Assembly (NCBI RefSeq): GCF_030268045.1
Contig: NZ_BSDC01000003.1
Coordinates: forward strand, 434,001 to 498,000
From: Geothrix edaphica
Lineage (GTDB): Bacteria; Acidobacteriota; Holophagae; Holophagales; Holophagaceae
Direction: 5' to 3'
DNA length: 64,000 nt
Position numbers and translations under genes: made by a program. Of the stretch, positions 2,705-15,206 are shown piece after piece. The notes beneath the pieces were generated by a model. It did not search any database, was not told the DNA's origin, and saw nothing but the letters and a program-made list of their open reading frames with translations. Positions within the stretch are counted from its first letter, which is position 1; the number at the start of each line of letters is the position of its first letter.

Positions 2705-3166
2705 TTATCCGAGGCTGACGTTGATCTTGCGAGGCCGCACCTCGGGGCGCTTGGGCACCATGAGGGTGAGCACGCCGTTGCGGAGCTCGGCCACCACCTT
2801 CTCGCCCTCCACATCCTCCGGGAGCGTGAAGGTGCGGCTGAACTGGCCATGGCTGCGCTCCGCGAGGTGGACGCGCTCGCCGTCCTTCAGGGCCTCCTCC
2901 TCGCGCTTGCCGGCGACGGTGAGGCGGGTGCCTTCCAGGCTGATCTCCAGGTCAGCCTCGAGGATGCCGGGCAGGTCGGCCTTGAACTGGTAGGCATCCG
3001 GGGTTTCCTTCACGTCGAAGCTGGGCATGAAGGCGGCCGCCGGGGTGGCCAGATCGTAGTCCCGGAGCGGATCCCAGCGCATGAAGTCGCGCATGAGGCG
3101 GAAGGGCTCCAGGCTGGCGGCCGTGGCCGGCAGGGTCTGGGGGTTGCGGGTGCGAAGGATGGTCAT
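2705..3166 (-). CDS. hsp20: Small heat shock protein, Hsp20/alpha-crystallin family
   Basis: This 153-aa ATP-independent holdase chaperone binds unfolding proteins. The start is the ATG at 3166, with AAGGAGG seven bases upstream; an in-frame ATG further upstream would lie before this ribosome binding site. The N-terminal arm runs to about residue 45. The alpha-crystallin domain follows, with FDVKETPDAYQFKADLPGI, the conserved ELRNGVLTLMVPK strand and a short KINVSLG tail. The C-terminal IXI oligomerisation motif is represented only by KINV. It is divergent from an HtrA protease across 194 bases that hold a recognisable promoter on each strand, which suggests a shared envelope or heat stress role. 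Confidence 0.93.
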   Translation of the reverse strand: MTILRTRNPQTLPATAASLEPFRLMRDFMRWDPLRDYDLATPAAAFMPSFDVKETPDAYQFKADLPGILEADLEISLEGTRLTVAGKREEEALKDGERVHLAERSHGQFSRTFTLPEDVEGEKVVAELRNGVLTLMVPKRPEVRPRKINVSLG

Positions 3167-3241
3167 GAGTTCCTCCTTGTGAATGGGGTCCCGTGCAATC
3201 ACGCGCCTGTGATACAGGCCATGATGACGTTTCCGAATAAA

Positions 3242-7535: not shown

Positions 7536-9389
7536 ATGGCCAACGATCTGCCTGGTTCCTACTGTCAGAACTGCCTTTCCTGGAACCCCGGGGACCGGGA
7601 GACGTGCGTGAAATGCGGCACGCGTCTCCTCATCCTGGCCGGGGACCAGACCTGGGAGGACGAGCCGGACGAGCCGGAAGGCGGCGAGGACCTGGAAGAG
7701 CACCTCCTGGAGCGCATCACCGGGCTGGAGGAGACCCTGCGCCGGGTGGAGACCTACCTGGAGACCGTCTCCGACCAGCTGGGCAAGCTGGAGCGCAGCG
7801 AGGTGATGCTCCGCAACGGCCTCATGGCCCTGGTGCAGGAGATGGAGCAGAAGCGCCAGCTGGACGCCCATGCCTTCTCCGAGCGCTGGGAGCAGCTGGT
7901 GGAGGAGAACCTGCACCTCATCAGCGCCCGCGAGCTGTTCACCCGCTATCGCGCCCGCATCCTGCCCATCGCCCGGCCCAAGTCCATGTCCCAGCTCAAG
8001 CGCGCCCTGCTGGAGACCACCGCCCTGCTGGAGGCCGCCGACCTGCCGGGCGCCGCCCAGCGCCTGGGCCAGGCCCTGCCCCTGGACCCCAAGAACTACG
8101 AGCTGATCTTCACCGCCGCCTCCCTGCATGAGGCCGCCCAGAACTTCGAGGAGGCCGAGGGCCTGGTCCGCAAGGCCGTGAGCCTGAGTCCCCGCCACTT
8201 CGAGGCCTGGATGCTGCTCGCCAAGCTGCTCCAGGAGCTGCCCGACCAGGCGGATCAGGCCATCGAGGCCCTGCACCAGGCTTCGGACCTGCGCCCCGAG
8301 GATCCCGAGCCCCGCATGCTGCTGGCAGAGCTGCTGCTGGACGAGGAGGATCTCCAGGGCGCGCTGGAGGCGGCCCAGGAGGCCGTGGCCCGTCGCAAGG
8401 ATGGCGAGACCCTGGTGCTGCTGGGCCAGGTCCACCTGGCCCGGGGTGAGAGTGCCCTCGCGGTACCCATCCTCAAGGAGGCCAGCGCCTACCTGCCCGG
8501 CGACCTCCACGTGCGGGAGTCCCTGGCCGAGGCCTACCTCCAGCAGGGCGACCGGTCCAAGGCCTTCGCCATCCTCCAGGAACTACTCATGCAGAATCCC
8601 GGCGACCCCCACCTCCTGCTCATGGTGGACGCCGAGGACCACCAGCAGCTGCGGGAGGCCCGGGACGGCAAGACCGGCACCCAGACCCTGCTGGACGAGG
8701 TCGAGACCCTGCTGGACGAGGAGCAGCTGGAGCCCGCCACCCTCCTCCTCAAGCGGGTCCGGCGCAAGGGCAAGAGCCAGCGCTCCGAGTGGCTGGACCT
8801 GCGGCTGGCCTTCCTCCGGAACCCGGAGAAGACCCTGAAGGCGGCCCTGGACTTCGCCTGCTCGGACCGGCACCCGCGCCTCTGCTTCCTGGCCCTGCGC
8901 CTGGCCCTGGAACACCTCATGGCCCAGAAGCGCGAGGCGGAGATCGCCCGGATCCTGGATGCCTTCCTCACCCGCCATCCGAAGAGCACCGGCGCCTGGG
9001 AGGCCGCGCTCATGCGCCAGGCCTACCGCCTCATGAACGGCCAGATCACGGACCAGGACCTGGTCGAGGTCCGCCGCCTCCACGCCCATCCCCTGCCGGG
9101 CATGGAACCCCGCGCCCGCACCCTGCTGGGCCAGTACCTCCTGGCCCTCAAGCGGCACCAGGAGGTGCTGGACCTGCTGGACCCCCTGCTGGAAAAGGAG
9201 CCCACCCTCATCAACCACTTCCAGCTGGGCGCCGCCCTGGCGGGCCTGGGCGAGCGGGAGGAGGCCCGGGCCCTGCTCAAGGCCGGGCTGGACGCCGAGC
9301 CCGGCGATCTCAACGATTCCCAGGCCAAGGGCGTGAAAAACCAGATCCGGGGACTTCTGAAGGAGCTGGACGGGGCTACGGAGGCCTGA
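7536..9389 (+). CDS. Large TPR protein with N-terminal zinc ribbon
   Basis: This 617-aa cytoplasmic protein opens with a zinc ribbon: Cys10, Cys13, Cys24 and Cys27 in YCQNCLSWNPGDRETCVKC. A Glu-rich coiled coil follows at about residues 45-130 (EHLLERITGLEETLRRVETY). The rest is a long array of TPR-like helical hairpins from about 150 to the end, including AASLHEAAQNFEEAEGLVRKA and AEAYLQQGDRSKAFAILQEL. No enzyme motif is seen. It looks like an assembly or scaffolding protein. It lies 80 bases upstream of the SUF operon on the same strand, but sufB has its own promoter, so a functional link is not established. Confidence 0.85.
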   Translation: MANDLPGSYCQNCLSWNPGDRETCVKCGTRLLILAGDQTWEDEPDEPEGGEDLEEHLLERITGLEETLRRVETYLETVSDQLGKLERSEVMLRNGLMALVQEMEQKRQLDAHAFSERWEQLVEENLHLISARELFTRYRARILPIARPKSMSQLKRALLETTALLEAADLPGAAQRLGQALPLDPKNYELIFTAASLHEAAQNFEEAEGLVRKAVSLSPRHFEAWMLLAKLLQELPDQADQAIEALHQASDLRPEDPEPRMLLAELLLDEEDLQGALEAAQEAVARRKDGETLVLLGQVHLARGESALAVPILKEASAYLPGDLHVRESLAEAYLQQGDRSKAFAILQELLMQNPGDPHLLLMVDAEDHQQLREARDGKTGTQTLLDEVETLLDEEQLEPATLLLKRVRRKGKSQRSEWLDLRLAFLRNPEKTLKAALDFACSDRHPRLCFLALRLALEHLMAQKREAEIARILDAFLTRHPKSTGAWEAALMRQAYRLMNGQITDQDLVEVRRLHAHPLPGMEPRARTLLGQYLLALKRHQEVLDLLDPLLEKEPTLINHFQLGAALAGLGEREEARALLKAGLDAEPGDLNDSQAKGVKNQIRGLLKELDGATEA

Positions 9390-9421
9390 ACCAGGCGTGA
9401 TCGACTGCACTGCGTATTAAG

Positions 9422-9449
9422 TTGACAATTTTAGTCGAGATTCCAGAAT
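9422..9449 (+). promoter_or_regulatory. SUF operon promoter with IscR/Rrf2-like operator
   Basis: TTGACA (9422-9427), a 16-base spacer and CAGAAT form a plausible promoter. Overlapping the -35 box is an imperfect palindrome at 9422-9438, TTGACAATTTTAGTCGA, with half-sites YGAC and GTCR separated by seven A/T-rich bases. This resembles the type-1 sites of IscR, an Rrf2-family Fe-S sensor that represses Fe-S assembly operons. No Rrf2-family gene is present in the window. Confidence 0.6.
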
Positions 9450-9469
9450 AGAACCCACGGGAGGCGGGC

Positions 9470-10909
9470 ATGAGCACCACCTTGAATGCGGTCACCAGCC
9501 AGGAATACAAGTACGGCTTCGTGACCGACATCGAGGCGGACAGCGTCGCGCCCGGACTCAACGAGGACGTCATCCGGTTCATCTCGGCCAAGAAGGGGGA
9601 ACCCGAGTGGCTGCTGGCGTTCCGCCTCAAGGCCTACCGCCACTGGCTGACCATGGTCGAGCCCGAGTGGGCCAAGGTGGAGTACCCGAAACCCGACTTC
9701 CAGAAGATCGTCTACTACAGCGCCCCCAAGCCCAGGAAGCCCCAGTACGCCTCCATGGATGAGGTGGATCCCGAGCTGCGGCGCACCTTCGAGAAGCTGG
9801 GCGTGCCCATCCACGAGCAGGAGGCCCTGGCGGGCGTGGCCGTGGACGTGGTCTTCGACTCCGTGAGCGTGACGACGACCTACCGGGAGAAGCTGGCCGC
9901 CGTCGGCATCATCTTCTGCAGCTTCAGCGAGGCCGTGAAGTCCCACCCGGACCTGGTGAAGCAGTACCTGGGCAGCGTGGTGCCCTCCTCCGACAACTTC
10001 TACGCGGCCCTCAACAGCGCGGTGTTCACGGACGGCAGCTTCGTGTTCATCCCCAGGGGCGTGGCCTGCCCCATGGACCTGAGCACCTACTTCCGCATCA
10101 ACAACAAGGAGTCGGGCCAGTTCGAGCGCACCCTCATCGTGGCCGAGGAAGGCGCCAGCGTGAGCTACCTGGAGGGCTGCACCGCACCCCAGTTCGACAC
10201 CAACCAGCTGCACGCGGCCGTGGTGGAGCTGGTGGCCCTGGACCGGGCCTCCATCAAGTACAGCACGGTGCAGAACTGGTACGCCGGCGACAAGGACGGC
10301 GTGGGCGGCATCTTCAACTTCGTGACCAAGCGCGGCCTCTGCAAGGGCAAGGGCTCGCACATCAGCTGGACCCAGGTGGAGACCGGCAGCGCCATCACCT
10401 GGAAGTACCCCAGCTGCATCCTGCTGGGCGACGACAGCATCGGCGAGTTCTACAGCGTGGCCCTCACCAACCACAAGCAGCAGGCCGACACCGGCACGAA
10501 GATGATCCACATCGGCCGCAACACGAAGAGCACCATCATCAGCAAGGGCATCAGCGCCGGCGACAGCTCCAACAGCTACCGCGGCCTGGTGAAGGTGCAG
10601 CCCAAGGCCGAGGGCGCCCGCAACTTCAGCCAGTGCGATTCCATGCTCATCGGGCAGTCCTGCAGCGCCAGCACCTTCCCCTACATCGAGGTGCAGAACC
10701 GCAGCGCGCGGGTGGAGCACGAGGCCACCACCAGCAAGATCGGCGAAGAGCAGCTGCTCTACTTCCAGCAGCGCGGCATCCCCGCCGAGGAAGCCATCAG
10801 CATGATCATCAACGGCTTCTGCAAGGACGTCTTCCGCGAGCTCCCCATGGAGTTCGCCGTCGAAGCCACCAAGCTGCTGTCGCTCAAGCTCGAAGGAAGT
10901 GTCGGATGA
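9470..10909 (+). CDS. sufB: Fe-S cluster assembly scaffold subunit SufB
   Basis: This 479-aa SufB is the core scaffold of the SufBC2D complex, on which Fe-S clusters are assembled. The sequence has the family's N-terminal segment ([20 protein letters not shown]) and the right-handed beta-helix core. Signature stretches include [39 protein letters not shown], and the late [20 protein letters not shown] with [11 protein letters not shown]. The ATG follows GGGAGGCGGGC. It is the first gene of a six-gene operon; its stop overlaps an alternative sufC start. The length is normal for SufB. Confidence 0.97.
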
Positions 10910-10923
10910 CCCCCGGAGTGCCC

Positions 10924-11684
<761 letters not shown>

Positions 11685-11688
<4 letters not shown>

Positions 11689-12965
11689 CCACGGCCACAG
11701 TCGGCTCTAGCCTGCTGCCAGACCTGCTCAGCGGTCCCAGACCCGCCGAGTGGGCTTCGCTGCGCGAAGCGGCGGAACGGCGGCTGGCGGGCCGCGACCT
11801 ACCCACGTCCTCCGACGAGGACTGGAAGTACACGGATCTGAAGGCCCTGGCCGCCACCGGCTTCGGCCCCGCGCCCCGGGCCACCGTGGACATCGCCGGG
11901 CACCTGCTCCCCGAGATGGTGGGCACGCGTCAGGTCTTCGTGAACGGCCACCATGCCTCCCACGCCAGCTGCGCCTCGGCCGTCCCCGCCGGGGTGCGCT
12001 ACTTCCCCATGTCCCACGCCAGCGAAGCCTGCCATGCGCTGGGCAGCATCGGGAACGGCGCTGCGAAGTGCGTCTTCGAGGACCTGAACACCGCCCGCTT
12101 CGAGGATGGCGCCGTCATCCTGGTGCCCAAGAACCTGAAGGTGGCCCTGCCCCTGCACCTGCTCTTCATCACCAAGGCCGAGACACCCATCGCCGTCTTC
12201 CCCCGGATCCTTGTGATGCTGGAGCGCGGCGCGGAACTGGAGCTGGTCGAGGAGCACCACGGCGAGGGCACCTACCTGAGCTGCCCAGTGGTTGAAGTCC
12301 ATGTGGCGGAAGGGGCCGTCCTGCGCCACGAGCGCGTGCAGCGCGAGAGCAGCGAGGCCTTCCACCTCGGAACCCTCAAGGCCGAGGTCGGCAAGGGCGC
12401 CCAGTACCATTCCCGCACCCTCAGCTTCGGAGCCCGCCTCTCCCGCCAGCAGCCCTGGGTGCGCCTGGCCGAGGGCGCGGAGGCCAGCCTCGATGGCCTG
12501 GCCCTGCTGGATGGCGCCCAGGTGGCCGACACCCACAGTTTCCTGCACCACGCCGAGCCGGGCGCCTCCAGCCACCAGCTGCACAAGTGCATCGTGGACG
12601 GGAAGGCCCGGGCCGTCTTCAACGGCCAGATCCTCGTGGCCAAGGGCGCCCAGGGCACGGACGCCCGGCAGCAGAGCCGCAACCTGCTGCTCTCGGAAGC
12701 CGCCCGGGTGGACACCAAGCCCCAGCTGGAGATCTACGCCGACGACGTGAAGTGCAGCCACGGCGCCGCCGTGGGCCAGCTGGATCCCGAGGAGCTGTTC
12801 TACCTCCAGAGCCGCGGCATGAACGCCGACGATGCGCGCAACCTCCTCACCTACGGCTTCGCGGCGGACGTGCTCACCCACATCCCCGTGGCCAGCCTGC
12901 GCCGCGCCCTGCGGCAGGTCGTCATGGCCCGCACCCAGGCCACCTCGCTGGGGGACCTCACATGA
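11685..12965 (+). CDS. sufD: Fe-S cluster assembly protein SufD
   Basis: This 426-aa paralogue of SufB completes the SufBC2D scaffold. Family features are SSDEDWKYTDLKALA near the N-terminus, the beta-helix middle and the C-terminal SHGAAVGQLDPEELFYLQSRGM, in which the conserved His of SufD is visible. The start ATG overlaps the sufC stop by four bases (ATGA), and its own stop overlaps sufS in the same way, indicating translational coupling. Confidence 0.95.
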
Positions 12966-14197
12966 GCACCGCCCTCCAGCCCCTTGACGTGGCGGCCATC
13001 CGCAAGGACTTCCCCCTGCTCTCCCGCGTGCTGAACGGCAAGCCGGTGGTCTACCTCGACAGCGCCGTGAGCGGCCAGATGCCCGTCCAGGCCATCGAGC
13101 GCATGACGAAGTACCAGCGGGATGAGCACACCAACGTCCACCGGGGCGTGAGCACCCTCAGCCAGGAGGCCACCGATTTCTACGAGGCCGCCCGCGAGAA
13201 GGTGCGCCGGTTCATCGGCGCCGCCTCCATCAAGGAGATCGTGTGGACCCGGGGCACCACCGAGTCCATCAACCTCGTCGCCCAGACCTTCGGCCGGATG
13301 ATGGTGAAGGAAGGCGACGAGATCCTCCTGTCCGCCATGGAGCACCATGCCAACATCGTGCCCTGGCAGATGCTGGCCCAGGAGAAGGGCGCCACCCTCA
13401 AGGTCATCCCCATGACCGATGCGGGTGAGCTGATCCTGGATTCCCTCGATGAGCTCATCACCGAACGAACCAGGCTCCTCGGCGTGGTGCATGTCAGCAA
13501 CGTCCTCGGCACCGTGAACCCCGTGAAGGAGATCATCGCCAGGGCCCATGCCAAGGGCGTGCCCGTGCTGGTGGATGGCGCCCAGGCCGTGCCCCACCTC
13601 CAGGTGGACGTGCAGGACCTGGATGCCGACTTCTACGCCTTCAGCGGCCACAAGCTGTCCGGTCCCACGGGCATCGGTGTGCTCTACGGCAAGCTGGCGC
13701 ACCTGGAGGCCATGCCCCCCTGGCACGGCGGCGGCAACATGATCCGCTCCGTCAGCTGGGAGAAGACCACCTACATCGCCGCGCCAGGCAAGTTCGAGGC
13801 GGGCACCCCGCCCATCGCCGCCGCCATCGGCCTCGGCACCGCCCTCGACTACGTGACGGCCCTGGGCCTGGACCGCATCGCCGCCCACGAGCACGAGCTG
13901 CTGGCCTACGCCACGGAGCGCCTGGAGGCCATTCCCGGCCTGCGCATCCTGGGGAACGCCAAGGAGAAGGCGAGCGTCCTGTCCTTCGTGGTCGAGGGCA
14001 TCCACGCCCACGACATGGGCAGCCTGCTGGATGGCGAAGGTGTCGTGGTCCGCGCCGGCCACCACTGCGCCCAGCCCGTCATGACCCGCTTCTGCGTACC
14101 CGCCACCACCCGCGCCTCCTTCGCCTACTTCAACACCCGCGAGGAAGTGGACATCCTGGTATCGGCCGTCGTGAAGGCCATCGAGCTGTTCAAATGA
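12962..14197 (+). CDS. sufS: Cysteine desulfurase SufS
   Basis: This 411-aa PLP enzyme removes sulfur from L-cysteine and supplies it to the scaffold. PLP Lys231 lies in AFSGHKLSGPTGIG. The catalytic persulfide Cys369 lies in RAGHHCAQP, the class II desulfurase motif. HHANIVPWQ and the C-terminal ASFAYFNTREEVD are typical. The start overlaps the sufD stop (ATGA). The partner is the downstream SufU rather than SufE, which is not found in this operon. Confidence 0.97.
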   Translation: MSTALQPLDVAAIRKDFPLLSRVLNGKPVVYLDSAVSGQMPVQAIERMTKYQRDEHTNVHRGVSTLSQEATDFYEAAREKVRRFIGAASIKEIVWTRGTTESINLVAQTFGRMMVKEGDEILLSAMEHHANIVPWQMLAQEKGATLKVIPMTDAGELILDSLDELITERTRLLGVVHVSNVLGTVNPVKEIIARAHAKGVPVLVDGAQAVPHLQVDVQDLDADFYAFSGHKLSGPTGIGVLYGKLAHLEAMPPWHGGGNMIRSVSWEKTTYIAAPGKFEAGTPPIAAAIGLGTALDYVTALGLDRIAAHEHELLAYATERLEAIPGLRILGNAKEKASVLSFVVEGIHAHDMGSLLDGEGVVVRAGHHCAQPVMTRFCVPATTRASFAYFNTREEVDILVSAVVKAIELFK

Positions 14198-14643
14198 CCG
14201 ACCCCCGCGAGCTCTACCAGCAGGTGATCCTGGAGCACAACAAGAAGCCCCGGAACTTCGGGAAGCTTGAGGCCTGTACCCATCACGCCGAGGGCTTCAA
14301 CCCCCTGTGCGGCGACCAGCTCGACCTGACCCTGGTCATCGAGAACGGCGTGGTGCAGGACATCAAGTTCCAGGGCAGTGGTTGCGCCATCGACACGGCG
14401 AGCGCGAGCCTCATGACCGGGGCCGTGAAGGGGAAATCCGTCGCCGAGGCCGAAGCCATGGCCGAGCAGTTCCGCGGCATGGTGCGCGGCGACCTGGACC
14501 CCGCCACCCAGGCGCCCCTGCTGGGCAAGCTCACCCTCTTCAGCGGCGTCAGGGACCTGCCCAGCCGCGTGAAGTGCGCCGTCCTCCCCTGGGCCACCCT
14601 CCACGCCGCGCTGAAAGGCGAGGAAGAAGCGAGTACGGAATAG
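14194..14643 (+). CDS. sufU: Zn-dependent sulfurtransferase / scaffold SufU
   Basis: This 149-aa IscU-fold protein has Cys39 and Asp41 in NPLCGD, Cys64 in GSGCAIDTAS and Cys128 in RVKCAVLPW. These are the four zinc or sulfur ligands of SufU. The insertion between the second and third Cys, compared with IscU, identifies SufU, which accepts sulfur from SufS by Zn-ligand swapping. The start overlaps the sufS stop (ATGA). The short C-terminal KGEEEASTE tail carries no motif. Confidence 0.95.
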   Translation: MTDPRELYQQVILEHNKKPRNFGKLEACTHHAEGFNPLCGDQLDLTLVIENGVVQDIKFQGSGCAIDTASASLMTGAVKGKSVAEAEAMAEQFRGMVRGDLDPATQAPLLGKLTLFSGVRDLPSRVKCAVLPWATLHAALKGEEEASTE

Positions 14644-14645
14644 CC

Positions 14646-15206
14646 ATGCCGAAGATCGCCGAGATCGAATACACCCCCAACCCCAACGCCGTGAAGTTCG
14701 TGCTGAAGGAAGCCGTGGCCCTGGGCTTCCCCAAGTCCTTCCCCAACGCGGAGACCGCCGAGCACGACGAGCTGGCCAAAGGCCTCTTCGCCGTGGGGAA
14801 CGTCACCTCGGTCTTCATGCAGGACAAGTTCCTCACCGTCACCAAGACCGACGACAAGGGCTGGCCCGAGATGCTGCCCTTGCTGGCCGCGCCCATCCGC
14901 GCTGCGGCGGGTGCCGGTGGCGGGCAGGCCCCCGCGGCCGGAGGACCCCGGGTCTTCAGCAAGGTGGACGACGAGAACGACCCCATGCTCAAGGACATCC
15001 GCATGGTGCTGGAGAGCGCCATCCTGCCCGCCCTGGCGGCGGACGGCGGCGGCCTCGAGCTGATCGGTCGCCACGAGAAGCAGGTCATGATCCGGTATAT
15101 GGGCGCCTGTGGCAGCTGCCCCGCCAGCCTCACCGGCACCCTGGTGGCCATCGAGGGCATGCTCCAGAAGGAAGTGGACCCCGAGATCGTGGTCATCTCG
15201 GTCTAA
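14646..15206 (+). CDS. nfu: Nfu-type Fe-S carrier protein (Nfu N-domain plus NifU C-domain)
   Basis: This 186-aa protein has two domains. The N-terminal Nfu domain (EYTPNPNAVKFVLKEAV) is followed by an Ala/Gly-rich linker around residues 85-100. The C-terminal NifU domain carries the cluster-binding CxxC in GACGSCPASLTGTL. It carries 4Fe-4S clusters from the SUF scaffold to target proteins. It lies two bases after sufU and is the last gene of the operon. Its TAA stop is immediately followed by the inverted repeat of the 15.2-15.5 kb element, so that element may replace or contribute the 3' end of the transcript. Confidence 0.93.
   Translation: MPKIAEIEYTPNPNAVKFVLKEAVALGFPKSFPNAETAEHDELAKGLFAVGNVTSVFMQDKFLTVTKTDDKGWPEMLPLLAAPIRAAAGAGGGQAPAAGGPRVFSKVDDENDPMLKDIRMVLESAILPALAADGGGLELIGRHEKQVMIRYMGACGSCPASLTGTLVAIEGMLQKEVDPEIVVISV

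Follow-up and report, generated by a model that had tools for sequence, protein, structure and literature searches.

A suf operon with a palindrome over its promoter

The window analysed here is a stretch of 64,000 nucleotides (positions 434001-498000 of contig C3 in genome G000), taken from a 3.16-Mb genome in six contigs whose closest named records are Geothrix. Members of this genus are iron reducers. The window carries a suf operon that runs from sufB to an nfu-like gene (Table 1). An initial annotation described the organism as one using SufU and Nfu; SufU does pass its NCBIfam cut-off, but the product of the last gene falls under every NCBIfam cut-off and owes its name to weak NifU/NfuA matches.

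In a comparison involving loci L025 to L087, Geothrix SufB (9470-10909 in the window) shares 77-81% identity with SufB proteins of proteobacteria, mostly Betaproteobacteria, which come directly after those of the Holophagaceae in the match list. Acquisition of the suf operon by horizontal transfer is possible.

Table 1 Features of the suf region in the window, and places matched by the refined motif across the genome
Feature	Position in window	Strand	Remarks
sufB	9470-10909	+	First gene of the operon; SufB above NCBIfam cut-off
sufC	10924-11688	+	SufC above NCBIfam cut-off; start picked from two in-frame ATGs
sufD	11685-12965	+	SufD above NCBIfam cut-off
sufS	12962-14197	+	SufS above NCBIfam cut-off
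sufU	14194-14643	+	SufU above NCBIfam cut-off
nfu-like	14646-15206 (protein 14646-15203)	+	Ends suf gene run; weak NifU/NfuA matches
Putative operator core TTGAC-N7-GTCGA	9422-9438	+	Palindrome, centre 9430
Putative extended operator TAAGTTGACAATTTTAGTCGAGATT	9418-9442	+	20 of 25 positions match the E. coli type-1 consensus
-35 hexamer TTGACA	9422-9427	+	Within left half-site; first six bases of the palindrome
-10 hexamer CAGAAT	9444-9449	+	Spacer 16
Refined-motif place 1			ispH
Refined-motif place 2			nrnA-like DHH phosphoesterase (72.7 bits, cut-off 350)
Refined-motif place 3			Regulator gene L002
Refined-motif place 4			nfu2; Dph6-like gene on opposite side
Refined-motif place 5			suf
Refined-motif place 6			Bacilliredoxin; flavin (FMN) reductase on opposite side

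Upstream of sufB, exactly where the initial annotation had placed a palindrome over the -35 box, lies TTGACAATTTTAGTCGA with TTGACA inside it. The combination TTGACA-16-CAGAAT matches a sigma-70 promoter at 10 of 12 positions, and it is the one such promoter found in positions 9300-9500, against a mean of 0.1 in shuffled sequences. The palindrome had also been assigned the YGAC-N7-GTCR form of IscR type-1 sites. This core is indeed present within the suf promoter, and the extended site agrees with the E. coli consensus ATASYYGACTRwwwYAGTCRRSTAT at 20 of 25 positions and differs in its outer flanks, but 15 bases in the literal form leave too much freedom to be evidence on their own. In the window, YGACNNNNNNNGTCR occurs once, whereas 4.36 occurrences (s.d. 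2.20) are expected from composition. Because about 4.4 are expected per 64 kb, the literal form is uninformative by itself, and its count, which lies below the chance mean, was dropped as evidence. What makes the palindrome significant is that it is conserved and that it belongs to a set of sites across the genome.

The site is conserved across Holophagaceae

The motif recurs at the suf promoters of relatives, with YGAC-N7-GTCR lying at most 110 bp from sufB in 14 of 17 named Holophagaceae loci. In the remaining three (L019, L022 and L023) the left half is kept and the right one reads GTAAG or GTATG. We built a footprint of 18 rows, the window plus the 17 named loci, anchored on GTTGAC, whose columns are conserved by construction. 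In this footprint the right half, an A-rich left flank and the -10 element (NANAAT in 15 rows, NANACT in three) are conserved, and the spacer columns +8 to +20 carry 0.9 to 2 bits. The site spans promoter elements, as an operator overlapping a promoter should, and conservation extends past them; from sequence, it looks like a real repressor site.

Two points would suit a conserved promoter with no operator at all, its GTCGA half having arisen by chance: the left half of the palindrome is itself a perfect -35 box, and chance alone would give the literal motif 4.4 times in the window. We regard this explanation as very improbable: the spacer columns are conserved even though a sigma factor usually does not read the spacer, and the same palindrome stands before ispH and an nrnA-like gene, at neither of which it forms a -35 box in this register.

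Among genomes of other genera, 22 of 27 were assessable; of the other five, four gave no match to SufB, and G076 has a split sufB whose start was not read. Those with the regulator described below carry GAC-N7-GTC at suf in 13 of 18 cases, 11 as TTGAC and two, both in group g2, as TGGAC; TTGAC-N7-GTA is found in the other five, namely G056 (g6), three genomes of g7 and one of g10. This sample overlaps with the named loci: L020 to L023 have promoters matching those of G052, G057, G060 and G072. The missing strict GTC right half in the five TTGAC-N7-GTA genomes and in L019 counts against assigning the regulator to suf.

A likely IscR-related regulator encoded elsewhere

The initial annotation stated that no regulator gene is present locally and proposed a search for Rrf2-family genes elsewhere in the genome. 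There are seven, all on contigs C1 and C2, and none in the window on contig C3. Our candidate regulator is L002 (G000:C1:1435561-1436070), named HoloIscR here. It has the top IscR score among the five Rrf2 genes scored (L003 and L004 were left out), with 118.2 bits against the NCBIfam IscR equivalog, below the cut-off of 207.55; its Rrf2 domain (PF02082) scores 107 bits against a cut-off of 30. The best solved relatives are the IscR proteins of E. coli and T. potens (E values of 6.6e-28 to 1.7e-26), and CymR follows at 7.8e-16. A tree of 37 rows, which carries a long-branch warning, places L002 in one clade with six betaproteobacterial IscR proteins, two acidobacterial ones and a protein of G158 (support 98/99), and the six other Rrf2 proteins of the genome fall outside this clade.

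An orthologue of L002 is present in 69 of 77 Holophagaceae genomes and in 46 of the 48 good ones; the eight genomes without it are G003, all four of group g11 and three incomplete Geothrix genomes. When 297 genomes were drawn from across the phylum, 50 gave a match to L002 at E <=1e-18, of which 19, at 31-46% identity, lie outside the family. Within the 3.4 kb read around L002 there are no isc or suf genes beside it, and by eye we take the gene that follows to be TtcA-like.

Among the other Rrf2 genes, L003 and L007 (G000:C2:210287-211318) are related and stand tail to tail, beside a gene that, judged by eye, presumably encodes several CXXCH haem motifs. L004 (G000:C1:797703-798077) encodes a CymR-like protein without the loop cysteines, and lies divergent from a gene that by eye we take to be cysK-like. 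We considered L004 as the suf regulator but rejected it in favour of L002, whose own promoter carries the motif and which is the sole Rrf2 gene kept in the reduced genomes G001 and G002 (both below).

A related site precedes the regulator gene

All 30 Geothrix copies of the regulator gene that were read, that of the window's own genome included, are preceded by AACTTGAC or TACTTGAC-N7-NTCARGAATA. The right triplet is CTC in 25 copies and ATC in five, with the strict GTC right half missing from all 30. TTGAC-N7-NTC lies over the -35 element in each of these and in 19 of 20 copies from other genera, whose right triplets are GTC in five (all g6) and ATC in 14, with GTA in G064. In copies from g6 and g9, TATATT or CATATT follows 17 bp after TTGAC(N), and the site therefore sits on the -35 element, as it does at suf. 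Both g2 genomes gave no GAC-N7-GTC in the 300 bp before the regulator gene. The operator motif also stands in the promoters of two acidobacterial iscR genes whose products have all three loop cysteines. We propose that HoloIscR would repress its own gene through this related site, which occupies the same promoter position.

Gene and site occur together, also in reduced genomes

The two g2 genomes, G001 and G002, measure 1.2 Mb and contain exactly one Rrf2 gene each, the L002 orthologue. Their suf promoters read ATTRTGGAC-N7-GTCCACAAT, with the palindrome TGGAC-N7-GTCCA. A pattern derived from these suf sites, and so bound to find them, had suf as its only zero-mismatch match per genome, together with three places at three mismatches each; the reversed control found no matches in either genome. 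In the g2 regulators Q44 is replaced by K and R59 by P or S, and these replacements fit the changed operator (TTGAC to TGGAC).

In group g11, which has no L002 orthologue, none of the three genomes assessed has the suf site. No Rrf2 gene was found in three of the four g11 genomes (completeness 69, 92 and 64), and the fourth, G073, has a single Rrf2 gene that groups with L001, and no suf site. G003 has TGGAC-N7-GTCCA at suf, yet no Rrf2 gene was found in this 84% complete genome.

These distributions bear on whether one of the six other Rrf2 proteins, four of which keep a C-X6-C-X5-C loop, might bind the suf site in place of HoloIscR. RisR of Myxococcus does bind the same form, GAC-N7-GTC (excerpt of PMC9973013). 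Nevertheless, we consider such a protein an improbable occupant, since the motif stands in the promoter of L002 itself, G001 and G002 retain the palindrome without any other Rrf2 gene, and the lone Rrf2 gene of G073 is accompanied by no suf site.

The motif marks a small set of promoters

A joint pattern built from the suf and regulator sites, which matches both without mismatch by construction, found places before ispH and before a second nfu gene when one mismatch was allowed across the whole genome. A refined pattern, AWSYTGACN7GTCARGAWT with at most two mismatches, was shaped after the own-genome matches of the joint pattern had been seen. In the 3.16-Mb genome it returned eight rows corresponding to six distinct places (Table 1), all directly upstream of or between genes. 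The initial annotation had looked to a motif shared by several Fe-S promoters, and suf, ispH and the second nfu are among these places. Across 16 genomes the refined motif gave 102 forward and 90 reverse rows, 192 in all, and its reversed control gave 15 and 22, 37 in all. Such numbers count true palindromic places twice.

Near-identical sites recur in six Geothrix genomes (G000, G010, G017, G018, G033 and G035). Those at suf, the regulator gene, ispH, the nrnA-like gene and nfu2 are found in six, that at the bacilliredoxin/flavin reductase pair in five, and one at thioredoxin-domain yyaL/ffh in four; five of the six own-genome places recur in all five other Geothrix genomes compared. Flanking genes were read at five of six nrnA-like sites, two of six ispH sites and all four yyaL sites, on the Dph6-like side of nfu2 in two of six and on the flavin reductase side in five of five; nfu2 itself and bacilliredoxin itself were read in the own genome. 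Outside the genus, genes were read at the ispH, nrnA-like and flavin reductase sites of G052 and on the Dph6-like side in G053. The remaining recurrent sites were assigned by site sequence, that of the regulator also by position, and the site-by-site reading covers the matches listed, which take in only a small part of G065 and none from G070, G072 or G073. The recurring targets include two that are not Fe-S genes, the nrnA-like gene and ffh, and G073, which has no orthologue, still gave 13 motif rows versus four control rows.

Enrichment in other Acidobacteriota is weak, with 45 motif rows to 20 control rows in G085, 39 to 25 in G292 and 14 to 6 in G158. The exact matches that stand out are those before iscR, two in G085 and one in G292; the other exact matches read (three in G085, one in G292) have no recognisable Fe-S gene downstream.

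Two further sites were observed in passing. L230 (G051:C1:2784512-2784535) is a palindrome, ATGTTGACTAAAATAGTCGACATT, near which no open reading frame of at least 70 codons starts; perhaps the same regulator controls a short gene or an RNA there. L237 (G053:C6:109144-109167) is a near-match before an hsp20-like gene. Because of the latter we inspected the promoter of the hsp20-like gene in the window (2705-3202, minus strand), which contains no GAC-N7-GTC.

Cysteines and recognition residues of HoloIscR

The three cysteines that serve as cluster ligands in IscR (C92, C98 and C104 in E. coli) are present at none of their columns in any of the 52 Holophagaceae copies aligned, whereas the six betaproteobacterial and two acidobacterial IscR rows have all three. 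Every one of the 52 copies has a C-terminal tail with four cysteines, CX7CX2CXC, and an extra cysteine at alignment column 70. Among the 19 phylum-wide matches outside the family, none of the ten fetched has this tail. Of the IscR recognition residues, E43 is present in 52/52 copies and both Q44 and the wing residue R59 in 50/52, and S40 is replaced by P in all copies. Because the loop cysteines are absent, the type-1 behaviour of the E. coli protein, in which only the cluster-loaded form binds, cannot be assumed for the Holophagaceae regulator. The control of SUF by an IscR-type protein that the initial annotation put forward is supported by the sequences in its main point, but the likely regulator is one without the IscR cluster ligands. 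Neither of the two outcomes that the initial annotation would have taken as refuting it came up: the motif is not missing from suf promoters of relatives, and the genome does not lack Rrf2-family genes.

The sister of the Holophagaceae regulator, L261 (G158:C6), has A in place of E43. It has a cysteine at one of the three loop columns, another nearby and two in the tail, a pattern that might represent an intermediate. In E. coli, the change of E43 to A enables apo-IscR to bind type-1 sites (excerpt of PMC5411485).

A model for suf control

We think it probable that the suf palindrome is the operator of HoloIscR, an IscR-related repressor that is encoded elsewhere, represses itself and governs the regulon listed above. 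The case for assigning HoloIscR to suf is strong at the level of sequence, and repression is the likely mechanism judging from the position of the site. We infer that HoloIscR binds and represses suf, probably working as IscR does, with suf repressed when the protein is loaded. A HoloIscR dimer at 9418-9442 would cover the -35 element and most of the spacer and thereby shut out RNA polymerase; when Fe-S clusters become scarce, HoloIscR would let go and suf would be made. In Geothrix its regulon would also comprise ispH, the second nfu, bacilliredoxin/FMN reductase and the nrnA-like gene. As the signal, an Fe-S cluster bound to CX7CX2CXC in the tail would be most likely.

A more specific reading, which we advance tentatively and at a little under even chances, is that HoloIscR is an IscR orthologue whose sensing site has moved, and that g2 presents a natural specificity switch. 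It holds jointly that the loop ligands were replaced by the tail site with DNA recognition and the suf regulon kept, and that in g2 the changes of Q44 to K and of R59 to P or S went along with the change from TTGAC to TGGAC.

The same operator and regulator could also serve a thiol or metal switch, with the tail cysteines binding zinc or forming a redox disulfide and suf responding to thiol or oxidative stress. The loss of the IscR loop ligands in 52/52 copies fits this explanation, as does a regulon that includes a bacilliredoxin, a flavin reductase and, in four of six Geothrix genomes, a thioredoxin-domain protein. We nonetheless hold it to be rather unlikely. Fe-S clusters are what the products of suf and nfu assemble, and IspH belongs to the Fe-S enzymes. 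The IscR of R. sphaeroides, which lacks the three loop cysteines, still binds a cluster through one C-terminal cysteine (excerpt of PMC4618611).

For Fe-S cluster assembly in Geothrix there is now a regulator, an operator and a regulon that can be put to the test. Should the tail cysteines prove to hold the cluster, HoloIscR would show that a sensor in wide use can shift its sensing site within the protein and still keep its target genes. In the reduced g2 genomes, a regulator and its operator may have changed in step.

Comparison with known systems

The arrangement resembles the IscR/type-1 system of E. coli in having a GAC-N7-GTC palindrome in the promoter, a site before the regulator's own gene, a regulator of the Rrf2 family and the recognition residues E43, Q44 and R59. 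It differs in the missing loop cysteines, the replacement of S40 by P, the outer flanks of the site and the lack of isc or suf genes beside the regulator gene in the 3.4 kb read. According to excerpts of PMC12594620 and PMC5411485, it is IscR loaded with its cluster that binds type-1 sites, and the two site types are told apart through E43. The E. coli suf operon has a type-2 site (excerpts of PMC12594620 and PMC9973013), unlike the type-1-like site of Geothrix. A paper that names IscR 120 times reports that the nfuA gene of P. aeruginosa is under the control of a global [2Fe-2S] transcription factor (PMC6084964). A search of mostly open-access literature returned no paper naming both Geothrix and IscR.

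Rhodobacter sphaeroides IscR likewise has no loop cysteines and has a C-terminal one, C142, which is needed for cluster binding, and it represses in the cluster-bound form (excerpt of PMC4618611). In contrast to this single cysteine and to a place in an isc-suf operon, the Holophagaceae regulator has four invariant tail cysteines and a separate locus; the two proteins were compared by these features.

With the betaproteobacterial IscR proteins encoded beside suf, the likeness lies in the SufB identity given above and in the iscR-suf promoter site of N. europaea (ATAGTTGACTAATATTGTCGGGTATTAT). They differ from the Holophagaceae regulator in gene position, 11 of the 13 loci scanned having the regulator gene upstream of sufB, and in the loop cysteines, which are present in the six rows aligned. 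Finally, RisR of Myxococcus xanthus is an Rrf2 repressor of suf and isc whose GAC-N7-GTC site overlaps promoter elements, although RisR keeps the three cysteines, is without the base-reading residues of the E. coli protein and falls in a distant Rrf2 group in that study's own tree (excerpt of PMC9973013). Its site, Tt/gGAC-N7-GTCCt/a in the same excerpt, resembles the TGGAC-N7-GTCCA palindrome of the g2 genomes.
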